Assembly (NCBI GenBank): GCA_029559475.1
Contig: JAKQBN010000049.1
Span: 34,950 to 98,949 of the forward strand
Length of the DNA stretch: 64,000 nucleotides
Reading direction: 5' to 3'
Origin: a bacterium
GTDB lineage: Bacteria > UBA4055
A program made the translations under genes and the position numbers. Shown piece by piece: positions 57,250 through 63,860 of this stretch. A model generated the notes under the pieces. The model was not told the DNA's origin. It made no database searches and saw nothing but the letters and a program-made list of their open reading frames with translations. Every line of letters starts with the position of its first letter. Position 1 is the stretch's first letter.

Positions 57250-57686
57250 ATATCTGGCATTTATTATCACTCGCCATGATATCCTCCGAAAAAATATCGG
57301 CATTAATTTATCTCGTCATATCATTTTTCAAAGCAGGCCGCAACCGGCAAAGCCGGCATTAATTGCATGATGATTTGGGAAGAACACGTACCGGCGACAA
57401 TGCGAGGATGCGTTCCTGCTTCTCAAAATATATGACTCGAACTTGAAACCTCTATCGGTCAAACATCGAGACATAATTCATGAAGGATCAACATCCGTTA
57501 CGTGTGAGTTTAATTGTAGTAATTGAACGAATGGCTGCAGGATGAGATCCGGAATGAAGTTATGCCGAGCATAAAATAAATAGATTGCATTGACGGCGCA
57601 ATATTATTATAATTGAAAATAAAATGATACAACGACATTATCTGGCGTACCGGCTATGGTATATTGGATAAAAAACGGAGAAAACT
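57250..57686 (+). other. 437-nt intergenic region with no recognised gene
   Basis: I find no coding region with a plausible ribosome site or recognised product, no tRNA and no strong hairpin terminator here. It contains CCGGC-AAA-GCCGG at about 57346-57358 and a promoter-like sequence at 57585-57613. It is the longest gap of the window and separates the division cluster from the helicase-nuclease gene. Confidence 0.7.
57585..57613 (+). promoter_or_regulatory. Promoter for the AddB-AddA fusion gene
   Basis: TTGCAT (57585-57590), 17-nt spacer, TATAAT (57608-57613), followed by a leader of about 67 nt. The -10 is perfect, the -35 weak. Confidence 0.5.
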
Positions 57687-60600
57687 ATGTCAAATATCGA
57701 TTTCAGTATAATATTTTACAACGCGAACGGCGATTTCAGACAGCCTGAGGAGATCGCGGAATCGATTCTGCTTATCAAAGATATTAATCAGAGCTACAAT
57801 ATTAAGCTTGCTATGATGGAATGGCTGAAAATAAAAGGGCATGAAACTTCATTTCTGCCCGAGATCAAGGCTGTTTACGATCATGCGAGGGAATTGTCGG
57901 GCATTGGCGTCGGCAGAGAGATAAGGGAAGAGGACTTCCTGATCCTTATGGAAAGATGTGATGCCGAAGGGCTTTTGTCGAAATTCAGAAAGTCGAATTT
58001 CAGGAATTATAAGAAGAGCCTTTTAAAGCTTATGAACTATATGGATCTCGATGCTGAAAGCAGGATAGAAAAAGCAGTATATGCCGACCTTGAAAAGAAC
58101 GGGCTTTATCCCGTGGTTCTTGACGGCATCAGGGAATATATAAACAAAAATGAATTCTATTTTAAAGGGCAGATATACGACAAGGCAGTTGATTCGATCA
58201 AAAAGGACGGAGCAAAGGATAATGTTTTCAGCCTTAATTTCTATCCGGGCGAATTATCATCAAAGGAGCACGGATTTTTAAATGCCCTCGGAGCACAGAA
58301 AATCGAATTCAATGCGGAAGGTAAATATTCTTCACTCGTGAAGGTATTCAGAGGCGAGGCGGATGCGGGATTCAACCCCGACGATATAGACTTCATCGTG
58401 TCGGATTCAAGACTGGATGAAGTCAGGAAGATCAAGCATCTGATCATGGGCAAGATTACGGGAGATAAGCCGGAATTCAGACCGGATGATTTTACAGTCG
58501 TATGCTCAGACGAGCAGACATTCAAAGTGATAAATAATCTGTTCTTCGCGGAACAGATCCCTGCGTATTCATCATATAAATACGCACTGAACGATATCTC
58601 GACCGATGTCTTAAGGCTCATCAAAGCCGGGATCGAAGGCGACGCTCAGAGCATTCTGAATTTTTATAATCTTTATATAGCGAATGAGCCTATTCAGTTC
58701 TCCGATATGACAGGAACTGATATCAGAACGCTCTATACCAAGCTTACAGCTTCTAAATCGGATCTGAAACTGAAGCCAAAAAAAGGTAAAGATAAAGATA
58801 TTGGGGAATTAAAAAAGCAGTTTATAAAAGAGTTTCTAAAACTTCTGAATATTGATGATGAACAGGTTTCGGTCGATAAAGCTCTTTCGGTTTTGAATTT
58901 AAAAATTAATAAATTGAACGATCTTTTAAAGTTCGTAGATAAAAAAGTCGAGCTTGAAATCTTTTCATATAAGGAGCCGTTTTATAAAATTTTCGGGGAT
59001 CATACTAGAAAATTTTCGGAATATATCGAATATCTTTATCTGATCAGTTCAAAATCGAACAAAGAAAAGCTGAATAAAGACATGTCAGGCGTCAGGATCA
59101 ACATGATGACAGAGCCCGGCTTCAGCGGGAAATTTCTTATTTTCGCCGATATGTCGGAAGGAAATTTTTTAAAAGCATCAAACCCGATCGGAATACTCAA
59201 AAAAGATAATTTTTTCAGCATGTATAAAAGCATCTACGGTGTTGATCCCGAGCAGGCTGTTTTCGAGAACTTCAGAATACTGACTTCAGGCACGATCGAA
59301 AGGGTCGCTATGTTCGTTCCCCAATGGGGCGACGAGTTCATTCCTTCGACGAAGATCGATAAAATTTTAGAATTGTATCCGAAGAATAATTTAAATATCG
59401 AAATTGTACCTGAAAAAGAAGGTTTGAATGATCTGTCGGCTGAATTCAGCGTTACGCTCAAAGACAGGCTTGAAGATACTGACTTCGGCAAGCTTGAAAC
59501 GACTGAGTTGAAACCCAGACCGGCTCAAGCTGAATTCACAATAGCCCTGCGCGAAGGGAACATCGAAAAATATCTCGTATCGCCTTCAAAGGTCGAGAGC
59601 TTTATGTCATGCCCGGCAAAACATGTTCATGATCTAAATCTGAGCTACGATCAAATAGAATCGCAGATGCCTTACACAAAAGGGAATTTCTTCCATAATA
59701 CTACCGAATCTTTTCTCAGGCATTATAAGGGGAAAGATCTTCTGACAGGATCAGAATATTCATTAGTAACCGGAATTTTGAGTTCAAATAAAGGCAATGA
59801 CAAGATCGCTAACGAAAGATATAAGGAGTTTTGCGAATTTTACTGGTCGGGACTTGAAAATGAAAAATTCGGTGCAGCCTATATAATCCTTCATGATAAG
59901 ATAAAAGCATCAGGAGTTGATGCTGAAATAGATAAATATTTAAAAATTCAGACCGAGAATGATCCGTACGGCTATTTCGCTTATGAGAAGCAGAAATACG
60001 AGATCATCGGTTTTATAGCCAGACTGATCATCACAATGGGAGAAACTCCTGCCGAAGTTTCAAATACCTTTTCTACCGAGGTAAAATTCGGCAGCTTTGT
60101 TGTTTCGGAAGATCCTGAGATCAGGATCAGGGAAGCGTATATTGATTTTATGTTCGTTGACAGAACAGGCAACGTGCGTATATTTGATATAAAATCAACA
60201 AAGAAATTCGAAGAGTTTGAAGATGAAATATTAAATTATCAGAAAGTTCAGATACTGATCTATAGAGAGGCTGTTTCGAGACGGTTGAAAAATGAATGCG
60301 GTGTCAGCTTCGATGTCCTTAACGACGGGAACAACAGAGACTGCACGATCCTGTCTGATGACTATTTTAATGCAATAGGTAAAGATGCGACCGTGACGGC
60401 TGATTATATTTCATCGAATAAGCCGTATATCCTTTCAAGCAGGGAGCAGAACTTTAAGGACTTCCAGAAGATATTGACTGAAAGGCTGAACGATCTTAAA
60501 CAATTTGCACCGCTGCCTAATTCAGGCTGTGAATACTGCACGCTGGCGGCATCATGCCCGGTTAACGAACAGTCAAAATTCGACAGGAAGAATATTGAAA

Positions 60601-63600
60601 CATTCAGACCTTCAGACAAGGCTGAAAAGCAGTTCGTTCAATATACTCCGCAAGACGTTAAGAAGACTGCCGGAAATAAAAAAACGAAAAAGTTTATAAT
60701 ATTCTCCGGCGATAAAGAAAAAGCGGTTAATTTAAATGAAAATACGATCATCTCAGCAGGTGCGGGAGCCGGAAAGACCGAAGTCCTTTCATCAAAGTAC
60801 GTTAATATGCTCGTAAATCACGATGCGGATACCGAAGACATAGTCTGCATCACTTTCACAAAGAAAGCCGCGGGAGAGATGCAGAAGAGGATATATTCAA
60901 AATTGAACGATGTGATCGAGAGCGGGTTCTTTTTCGTAACAGATCTCGGCGCAGATCCTGAAAAGTACAGAATAGACGAAAAGAAAAAAGCGAAGCTGAT
61001 AAAAATAAGGGACGGATTTTACGAGAACAACCTGATCTCTACCTTCCACTCATTCTGCAACAAGTTCATTTCGGACTACGGATATTCAAGCGAGAGGCTG
61101 AAAAATTACGATGTGGCTCAGGACTTGTCTGACGATTACAGGATAAATGATGAATCGGTAAAATTTCTGAAAAGGGAATTTGACAACGGGTTTAAAGAGA
61201 TATTATCAGACAACCTGAACGGAGAAGAATACGCAGTATTTAACGACTGGCTGACTTCAAGACATCTTGTCTATTCAGGCGATTTCGAGGGTGGATTCAT
61301 TCCGGACCTTCTCAGCCTGTACGCCGAAATGAAACTCAGCGGAAGAGAACTTGAACAGGATCAATGGCTGGTTCCGCTTGATAATTATATAAATCAGATC
61401 GAAGAGAGATTCAGAAAAGAAGCTTCAGATTACATTGAACTGAAAAAACAGGCCATAGCCATGCTGGAAGAAGAGATCGGTTCATCCGGTCAAAATGAAA
61501 AGCTTTCAAGCCTGAAAGACAAGATATCGGCAGATCAGGATTTTACCTATAAAAGCGTACTTTCCGAGAAGAAATTTCCCGAGCTCAGGGAGATCGTGAC
61601 TGAACTTACTGAAACTCAGGCTTATGAATATATCAACAAAAGATCGGTTGATTTCAGCCTGAACGGAAATGAATGGATGATCAAGAAGGCTGTTTTCGGG
61701 ATCATCTCAGCTTTAAACGGCTATATTTCGGAATATAAAGCTTTAAAAGGACTTTTGGAGCAGAACGATCTACACCTTCACTTTCTCGAGATGCTCAAAG
61801 ATGAAGATGTGAGAAGTGAACTTCACAAAAGGTTTAAATATATCCTCGTGGACGAATTCCAGGATACCAACTGGCTTCAGGATAAAATACTGGAAAAACT
61901 GAAAACTGCCGGAAATAAATATTTTCTCGTCGGCGACAGAAAGCAGTCGATCTACAGATTCCAGCAGTGCGATGTTCAGATCTTCGAAAAATACTTGGAG
62001 AAGTTTAGAGTTCTTCACTTCAGTGATAACTTCAGATCGTCTCCGCAGATAGTAGATTTTAATAACTCCGTTTTTTCACCGTCGGCAGCGAACGGCTATG
62101 ATATCATCAAAGACAAAAACGAGCTTTCAAAAACGCCCGAAGGGAAAGTCAGCAGGTACCCGTCATCCGTCAATTTTGTCAATATCAACAGTGCAGGCAC
62201 AAAAGAGCTTGTAAAAGGAGACGAATCCTATGATCTGTCTCAATCACAGACGGGCATGATCAGCAAGATGGCAGAAGCGGCATTCGTATCTGATACAATT
62301 CTGAAGAACTACGAAAACGGCAGAAACTTCGGTGATTGGGCTGTGCTTATACGCAAATACACCCACATCGGATTTATAACCGAGGCTTTCAGGAAGAAGA
62401 ACATTCCCTATACTCTCATTTTGAAGCGAGATCTGTTCATTCTCAAGGAAGTTGCCGAATTTATCAATATTCTCAAAACAGCCATGAAAGTGATAAACCC
62501 GGCGGAGATCGAATTCTTACAGGGCTCTTACAGCCTGCTCCAAAGCATAAAAGAAGGCGATCCGCTTATCTGTGTCATTTATAAAATATTCAGCCATGAA
62601 ATTTACAGGAATTATCTTGCATCGTTTCCGGATTACGAAACAAAGCTTGCAAACATAGAGATACTTATCGAAAATCTGCTCGGTCTTCTTACAGAATCTG
62701 AGAACGACAGGGAAAGGTTCCTCACAGAATTAGAAAAGAGCATCAGGAATAATTCTGCGGGTGTTGTAGTCCAAAAGCCGGACGCGGTGACCATTATGAC
62801 CGTCCACAGCGCAAAAGGCCTTGAATTTGAGAATCTGATACTGGCTAATGTTGACGAGTACGATAAAAATCAGACCTCTACCTTCAATTATCTTAATTTA
62901 TGGGAGAAAGGCAGCAATTACATTGATTTCTCCATGACGGGATATAAATCTGCTACAGGCATGAACGGGCGCAATTTTTTCAAAAACGAATATATCAAAT
63001 TCAAAAATAAGGATTTTGATGCCGCCGAAAGAGCCAATCTGCTTTATGTCGCGCTCACGAGAGCAAAGAGTTCTCTGACGGTAGTTATTCAGACAAAAAA
63101 TGAAAGCGACGGCAGTTATGAGGAAGATAAAGTAACAGGCTGGGCAAAATACCTCAATAAATTCGGTGCTGAGAATAACGGAGAAATTGAAGGTTTCAGC
63201 TATATTCAGAAAGATATAAGCGAATTCGATCTGAGCGGGTATTTTGAAACCAGCGCAGGCAGTGAAAATAAATATCATGCCGAGAAAATTTATGATGCGG
63301 CATTTGAGGCTAAAGGCAATAAAATAGATTCAGCTACGGGGCTGTCTCATAAAGATGACGAAGTCACGCATGAGAAAGGAAATACGACAGCTATAGACAC
63401 TGGTAATTTCGTACACCTTTTTATGAGTAAAAAAATATCAGTACTTTTCAAGCCTGATTTTCAACTTGAAACAGAGCTGAAAGAATTCAAAAAGACTGAT
63501 ACCGAAAGCAATTCGGTCAATCTCAAAGCAGTTCAGAAAATGATAGAAAATATAATGGATGAATCGGTTTTTAAAAAATACGCTGAATGCGGGCATATTT

Positions 63601-63860
63601 TATGCGAAAAAAATATCGTGGATACAGGAAAGAATCTTCAGGGCTACATTGACCTTGTACTGCTTTGCGGTGATGAAGTCATAGTTCTCGACTATAAAAC
63701 ATACCTGAACAAATTCCCGGACGATGAGCTTGTCGCAAAATATAAGCATCAGGTAAATATTTATGCCGATGCGCTCTCAAAGATATATCCAGATAAGAAC
63801 GTCAAAAAATACCTTTTCTTCATAAGCACAGATAAAGCTGAACTTAAAGAAATCGAATAA
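57687..63860 (+). CDS. AddB-AddA-like single-chain helicase-nuclease (2057 residues)
   Basis: One open frame holding two proteins that are usually separate. Residues about 1-1000 are AddB-like: no Walker A, then a PD-(D/E)XK nuclease with acid and lysine in VRIFDIKSTKK (near 830) and the cysteine set for a 4Fe-4S cluster (C642 in MSCPAK; C948, C951 and C957 in CEYCTLAASC). Residues about 1015-2057 are AddA-like: Walker A SAGAGAGKTE near 1025, Walker B VDEFQDTN near 1386, the GDRKQSIYRF motif, VHSAKGLEFENL, and a second C-terminal nuclease with D1989 (QGYIDLVLL), D2002 and K2004 (VLDYKTY). Likely processes DNA double-strand ends for recombination. CGGAG lies 7 nt before the ATG. The stop is followed by 140 nt without a recognised gene. 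Confidence 0.88.
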   Translation: MSNIDFSIIFYNANGDFRQPEEIAESILLIKDINQSYNIKLAMMEWLKIKGHETSFLPEIKAVYDHARELSGIGVGREIREEDFLILMERCDAEGLLSKFRKSNFRNYKKSLLKLMNYMDLDAESRIEKAVYADLEKNGLYPVVLDGIREYINKNEFYFKGQIYDKAVDSIKKDGAKDNVFSLNFYPGELSSKEHGFLNALGAQKIEFNAEGKYSSLVKVFRGEADAGFNPDDIDFIVSDSRLDEVRKIKHLIMGKITGDKPEFRPDDFTVVCSDEQTFKVINNLFFAEQIPAYSSYKYALNDISTDVLRLIKAGIEGDAQSILNFYNLYIANEPIQFSDMTGTDIRTLYTKLTASKSDLKLKPKKGKDKDIGELKKQFIKEFLKLLNIDDEQVSVDKALSVLNLKINKLNDLLKFVDKKVELEIFSYKEPFYKIFGDHTRKFSEYIEYLYLISSKSNKEKLNKDMSGVRINMMTEPGFSGKFLIFADMSEGNFLKASNPIGILKKDNFFSMYKSIYGVDPEQAVFENFRILTSGTIERVAMFVPQWGDEFIPSTKIDKILELYPKNNLNIEIVPEKEGLNDLSAEFSVTLKDRLEDTDFGKLETTELKPRPAQAEFTIALREGNIEKYLVSPSKVESFMSCPAKHVHDLNLSYDQIESQMPYTKGNFFHNTTESFLRHYKGKDLLTGSEYSLVTGILSSNKGNDKIANERYKEFCEFYWSGLENEKFGAAYIILHDKIKASGVDAEIDKYLKIQTENDPYGYFAYEKQKYEIIGFIARLIITMGETPAEVSNTFSTEVKFGSFVVSEDPEIRIREAYIDFMFVDRTGNVRIFDIKSTKKFEEFEDEILNYQKVQILIYREAVSRRLKNECGVSFDVLNDGNNRDCTILSDDYFNAIGKDATVTADYISSNKPYILSSREQNFKDFQKILTERLNDLKQFAPLPNSGCEYCTLAASCPVNEQSKFDRKNIETFRPSDKAEKQFVQYTPQDVKKTAGNKKTKKFIIFSGDKEKAVNLNENTIISAGAGAGKTEVLSSKYVNMLVNHDADTEDIVCITFTKKAAGEMQKRIYSKLNDVIESGFFFVTDLGADPEKYRIDEKKKAKLIKIRDGFYENNLISTFHSFCNKFISDYGYSSERLKNYDVAQDLSDDYRINDESVKFLKREFDNGFKEILSDNLNGEEYAVFNDWLTSRHLVYSGDFEGGFIPDLLSLYAEMKLSGRELEQDQWLVPLDNYINQIEERFRKEASDYIELKKQAIAMLEEEIGSSGQNEKLSSLKDKISADQDFTYKSVLSEKKFPELREIVTELTETQAYEYINKRSVDFSLNGNEWMIKKAVFGIISALNGYISEYKALKGLLEQNDLHLHFLEMLKDEDVRSELHKRFKYILVDEFQDTNWLQDKILEKLKTAGNKYFLVGDRKQSIYRFQQCDVQIFEKYLEKFRVLHFSDNFRSSPQIVDFNNSVFSPSAANGYDIIKDKNELSKTPEGKVSRYPSSVNFVNINSAGTKELVKGDESYDLSQSQTGMISKMAEAAFVSDTILKNYENGRNFGDWAVLIRKYTHIGFITEAFRKKNIPYTLILKRDLFILKEVAEFINILKTAMKVINPAEIEFLQGSYSLLQSIKEGDPLICVIYKIFSHEIYRNYLASFPDYETKLANIEILIENLLGLLTESENDRERFLTELEKSIRNNSAGVVVQKPDAVTIMTVHSAKGLEFENLILANVDEYDKNQTSTFNYLNLWEKGSNYIDFSMTGYKSATGMNGRNFFKNEYIKFKNKDFDAAERANLLYVALTRAKSSLTVVIQTKNESDGSYEEDKVTGWAKYLNKFGAENNGEIEGFSYIQKDISEFDLSGYFETSAGSENKYHAEKIYDAAFEAKGNKIDSATGLSHKDDEVTHEKGNTTAIDTGNFVHLFMSKKISVLFKPDFQLETELKEFKKTDTESNSVNLKAVQKMIENIMDESVFKKYAECGHILCEKNIVDTGKNLQGYIDLVLLCGDEVIVLDYKTYLNKFPDDELVAKYKHQVNIYADALSKIYPDKNVKKYLFFISTDKAELKEIE

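Follow-up and report, generated by a model that had tools for sequence, protein, structure and literature searches.

Does the long frame that nearly closes its contig in the window, a 64,000-nucleotide stretch of bacterial DNA, encode both halves of an AddAB-type helicase-nuclease in one chain, or was it produced by an error of sequencing or assembly? The first-pass annotation had read it as an AddB-like and an AddA-like half within one uninterrupted frame, and the frame indeed comprises 2057 codons with zero internal stops, ending 140 bp short of the contig end (Table 1). A search of relatives, all of them draft assemblies, recovered the fusion in 12 of the 13 family genomes, the exception being G004. 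Six carry a full-length single frame of 1996-2057 aa (G000, G005, G006, G007, G008 and G011), fragments spanning the junction occur in three more (G002, G010 and G012), and the matches in G001, G003 and G009 are truncated by contig ends. The junction is therefore intact in 9 of the 13, and the protein search reported no internal stop within any family match, including the fragments cut by contig ends; nor does a stop, which could have overturned the annotation, lie between the halves in the window. Identity to the window falls as low as 28% (G006), with the order of modules and the catalytic residues retained. The frame recurs in six genomes, five of which share 28-57% identity with the window, so that an assembly join can be rejected, and for practical purposes both sequencing error and mis-assembly are ruled out as its source. 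Over 1184 codons compared with a congener dN/dS is 0.036/0.306 = 0.12, and on these substitution rates the family gene is under purifying selection. Sequence comparison thus confirms the AddB-to-AddA fusion as real and not a product of chance.

Table 1. Features of the fusion gene (window positions) and further AddAB fusions (positions given with their locus handles)
Feature	Position	Strand	Basis
addB-addA fusion gene	57687..63860	+	single open frame, ATG start, 2057 aa
Shine-Dalgarno-like GGAG	57677..57680	+	sequence; 6 nt before ATG
Predicted AddB-like inactivated SF1 helicase fold, residues 1-578, no Walker A	57687..59420	+	AF2 model, VIA matches, no GK[ST]
AddB-type PD-(D/E)XK nuclease, residues 631-958; H670, D820, D834-x-K836	59577..60560	+	PF12705 E 2.4e-14; motifs invariant
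Iron-staple cysteine C642	59610..59612	+	motif
Iron-staple cysteines C948, C951, C957 (CEYCTLAASC)	60528..60557	+	motif
Linker, about residues 958-1008	60558..60710	+	no in-frame ATG/GTG/TTG in window genome
AddA-like UvrD N-terminal motor region (PF00580), residues 1011-1440	60717..62006	+	E 5e-50
Walker A	60756-60779	+	motif
Motif II DEFQD	61851-61865	+	motif
UvrD_C region, best stretch residues 1652-1801	62640..63089	+	profile match; motif VI
Motif VI LLYVALTRAK	63039-63068	+	motif
C-terminal AddA nuclease, residues 1901-2046; H1910, D1989, D2002-x-K2004	63387..63824	+	PF12705 E 3.2e-8 in C-terminal half; residues invariant
G168 AddB-to-AddA fusion, 2125 aa	L157:4801-11175	-	Pfam + NCBIfam
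G360 AddB-to-AddA fusion, 2463 aa	L158:2651-10039	+	Pfam + NCBIfam
G208 AddB-to-AddA fusion, 2000 aa	L159:6359-12358	-	Pfam + NCBIfam
G307 AddB-to-AddA fusion, 1559 aa	L161:2239-6915	+	Pfam + NCBIfam
Neomarinimicrobiota MAG fusion in reverse order (AddA-to-AddB), 2067 aa	L074:8016-14219	+	profile matches

The N-terminal half is the more divergent of the two by sequence, with PDDEXK_1 as its only match. None of the NCBIfam AddB models, TIGR02773 and TIGR02786 included, recognizes it, so that the HMM search proposed in the first-pass annotation failed for this half, and its profile matched nothing among the PDB sequences. Weak sequence likeness is usual for AddB, the B. subtilis and proteobacterial proteins likewise showing no significant similarity to each other (PMC1193525). 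The AddB identity of this half therefore rests on structure, profile-profile comparison and the iron-staple cysteines. In Foldseek searches with its AF2 model, of middling confidence (pLDDT 62.8), the best hit is the B. subtilis AddB chain 4ceh_B (E 1e-11), with AdnA close behind (E 3.9e-11). In VIA comparisons residues 1-578 of this model match UvrD-type helicases at 3.9-4.5 A, and an AddB match extends over residues 1-947 (Z 13.1, rmsd 19.8 over 678 residues). Aligned by hhalign to a profile of five other AddB halves, each of which directly matches an AddB model and PDDEXK_1, residues 433-966 give 97.9% probability (E 5e-13). The four cysteines lie exactly where the annotation had placed them, in the arrangement of an iron-sulfur staple, and are predicted to bind an Fe-S cluster. 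Together with the H/D/D-x-K residues of both nucleases and the Walker A they are invariant in relatives wherever these positions are covered, the sole departure being a Ser at position 957 in G009, at the extreme end of a contig fragment. A single GK[ST] occurs in the 2057-aa protein, at 1029-1031 (AGAGAGKT, 1024-1031), and the N-terminal half therefore has no Walker A, as had been noted. These results support, on modeled folds and profile comparison, the assignment of the N-terminal half as an AddB-type protein.

The C-terminal half carries the motor motifs and the nuclease residues of Table 1, in keeping with its earlier description as an AddA-like UvrD helicase with a C-terminal PD-(D/E)XK nuclease of its own; the motor is of the UvrD type (PF00580/PF13361), its second part being recognized by UvrD_C at E 1e-25. 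Here the proposed HMM search succeeded in part: addA_Gpos (TIGR02785) is the best NCBIfam model with 202.7 bits, ahead of recB with 190.2 bits, but the score lies under its curated cut-off of 707.65, a narrow one that excludes all but 2 of 14 control genomes. With the AF2 model of this half, likewise of middling confidence (pLDDT 57.0), Foldseek places four AddA chains ahead of any RecB (4cei_A, E 7e-23, versus 1e-15 for RecB), and the VIA Z values for AddA and RecB are tied at 18.6 and 18.5. The suggested structural comparison with B. subtilis AddAB thus returned its subunits as the top hits of both predicted halves. The NCBIfam ranking and the modeled fold support a motor of the AddA/RecB type with its own C-terminal nuclease, AddA ranking first. 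The expectation of a single ATP motor holds, there being one Walker A in the chain, but it is no special consequence of the fusion, because B. subtilis AddAB also runs on the AddA motor alone (PMC4027173).

The genomic context bears on what the fused protein does. In G000 every PDDEXK_1 match falls within the fusion, and there is therefore no stand-alone AddB in this genome; its other SF1 matches are two UvrD/PcrA-sized proteins (682 and 735 aa) and one short frame. RecA is present, with a score of 550.7 bits, and was found in 6 of the 7 genomes tested; RecD did not score above its cut-off in any fusion genome tested. G004, which lacks the fusion, encodes a RecB of 1111 aa (L136:6944-10279, plus strand; 602 bits) and, on another contig, a RecD (463 bits), while the RecC model matched in no genome tested, G004 included. 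In G004 a RecBCD-type set has thus naturally taken the place of AddAB, RecC not being found by the model. Across the tested genomes there is either the fusion without RecD or RecB and RecD without the fusion, a pattern that rests on this one swap. As G004 has recB and recD in place of the fusion, the latter most likely performs the AddAB/RecBCD job, namely end resection for RecA. In two genera the fusion is flanked by ftsQ/A/Z and a QueD-like gene; elsewhere its neighbors vary, and no recurrently linked gene was seen beside it across the family flanks. In the window itself, the 437 bp that separate the QueD-like gene from the fusion (57250-57686) hold no ORF of at least 80 aa.

The junction raises the question of whether the product stays in one piece. 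An internal re-start yielding a separate AddA was considered and rejected, there being no in-frame ATG, GTG or TTG at the junction in the window or G007, and the few that occur elsewhere not being shared. Alternatively, one chain might be made and then cut in the linker by a protease to give an ordinary AddA-AddB heterodimer. Of the parts tested, the linker is under the weakest constraint (dN/dS about 0.43 across the 75 codons at the junction), and it shows no sequence conservation in the family, as might be expected of a cleaved segment, but the spacing from the last cysteine to the Walker A is kept at 61-67 aa even where identity drops to 28%, and we consider cleavage unlikely. A derivation of the fusion from AdnAB or RecBC instead of AddAB is suggested by the close second rank of AdnA for the N-terminal half and by the near-level scores of RecB and AddA for the C-terminal half. 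However, AdnA bears a motor and keeps its Walker A, unlike the N-terminal half, whose intact iron-staple nuclease is in turn absent from RecC; with RecD also not found in the fusion genomes tested, such an origin appears decidedly improbable.

Fusions of a Cas4-like nuclease to UvrD with defense genes as neighbors are known (PMC5704561), and the protein might by comparison be an anti-phage or accessory UvrD-Cas4-like helicase-nuclease and not a housekeeping resection enzyme. This we regard as very improbable, given the near-universal presence of the fusion in the family, flanks that in two genera hold ftsQ/A/Z with QueD-like genes and that vary elsewhere, free of any recurrent partner, and the RecB and RecD that stand in for it in G004. 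Moreover, relatives of the N-terminal half were absent from the phage collection and none was confirmed in viral contigs; matches in plasmids were to the helicase region only, none covering 80% of the query. The best explanation, to which we give a probability of about 0.85, is a single-chain AddAB-type helicase-nuclease that arose by in-frame fusion of an addB-addA pair and probably acts like the two-part enzyme.

AddAB is characterized by Chi recognition together with an ionic latch formed by AddB E129 and R629. In the known enzyme translocation is powered by the one SF1A motor of AddA, each strand has its own RecB-family nuclease, and Chi is read by the dead helicase domain of AddB (PMC4027173, PMC4824097). 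By analogy, the fused protein would bind a double-strand DNA end, which the AddA half, as the only ATP motor (SF1A, 3'-5'), would unwind. On its way to the C-terminal AddA nuclease the 3' strand would thread through the inactive helicase domain of the AddB half, which in known AddAB is the Chi-scanning position, and the 5' strand would be led to that half's iron-sulfur nuclease, leaving a 3' overhang for RecA. A response to Chi and a hand-over to RecA may be expected on the same analogy, and the linker would lock the subunit ratio at 1:1, which might in turn influence assembly, polarity or regulation.

The first-pass annotation had implied that such a fusion is singular. We searched a 386-genome sample with an AddA-AddB query, typing the long frames by Pfam and NCBIfam, and recovered further AddB-to-AddA fusions, which thus occur in at least three other bacterial groups; a Neomarinimicrobiota genome has one fusion in the reverse order (Table 1). 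As fusion also occurs in unrelated lineages, that of the window is less singular than had been implied. G168 and its relatives G395, G398 and G401 make up a second lineage in which the fusion is conserved, with frames of 2042 and 1941 aa among the relatives; none was seen in the relatives of G208. The last Fe-S cysteine precedes the Walker A by 60-64 aa in three of the four other AddB-to-AddA fusions, close to the 61-67 aa of the window family, and by 121 in G360. The G168 and G307 chains stop about 70-86 residues past motif VI and therefore lack the AddA nuclease; in G307 the AddB half is also shortened, leaving one Fe-S nuclease and one motor, a Dna2-like layout built from AddAB parts. In G360 there is a second Fe-S-like CxxC...C motif at the C-terminus. 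In the tree the fusions of the window family form one fully supported clade, and those of G168, G360 and G307 another; the tree does not group all AddB-to-AddA fusions by a single origin, nor is such an origin rejected (AU p = 0.30). Some 30 named genomes have addB immediately upstream of addA on the same strand, its end falling at the addA frame or just ahead of it, so that fusion needs the loss of just one in-frame stop; such a pair is the obvious precursor.

The searchable literature yielded no account of AddA and AddB fused in nature, which is weak evidence as many key subscription papers lie outside its coverage. The data support reading the window protein as an AddAB-type enzyme that is divergent and single-chain, and as one among several such fusions in nature. 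A natural single-chain AddAB provides a one-gene, fixed-ratio form of the complex; as long as the subunits need co-expression, the communication between them and the switching at Chi are hard to dissect. How a bacterial resection complex could shift toward Dna2-like layouts is indicated by the recurrence of fusion, in either order, and by the two lineages with reduced forms. We tentatively speculate that AddB-AddA fusion is a recurring route to a one-chain resection machine whose stoichiometry is built in and whose Chi control is altered, from which G168 and G307 have shed modules toward a Dna2-like enzyme with one motor and one nuclease.

Among known systems, AdnAB shares with the window fusion the paired SF1 helicase folds and two nucleases, but has a Walker A in both helicase domains where the window chain has one. 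Dna2/Bad likewise joins an Fe-S nuclease to a following SF1 helicase in one chain (PMC7430649); however, it combines an SF1B helicase with one nuclease, whereas the motor of the window fusion is UvrD-type and is accompanied by a dead helicase domain and a second nuclease. The Dna2-like Bad (PMC7430649) and the UvrD-Cas4-like fusions (PMC5704561) are proteins different from the AddB-AddA fusion. The G168, G360, G208 and G307 fusions share the AddB-to-AddA order with the window family but belong to different families, and the Neomarinimicrobiota protein has all four functional modules in one chain, as in the window, with AddA placed first instead. The closest likeness is to the AddAB (RexAB) of B. 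subtilis, which has the dead helicase fold and Fe-S nuclease in AddB and the single SF1A motor and nuclease in AddA. The sequence of the N-terminal half is too distant for the AddB models, but the SF1A motor motifs, the C-terminal nuclease, the predicted dead AddB fold and the four-cysteine nuclease are all present in the fusion. The B. subtilis enzyme consists of two separate subunits and that of the window family, in six genomes, of one chain; separate polypeptides are an AddAB feature that the fusion lacks, and this is a variant trait and not a functional one.
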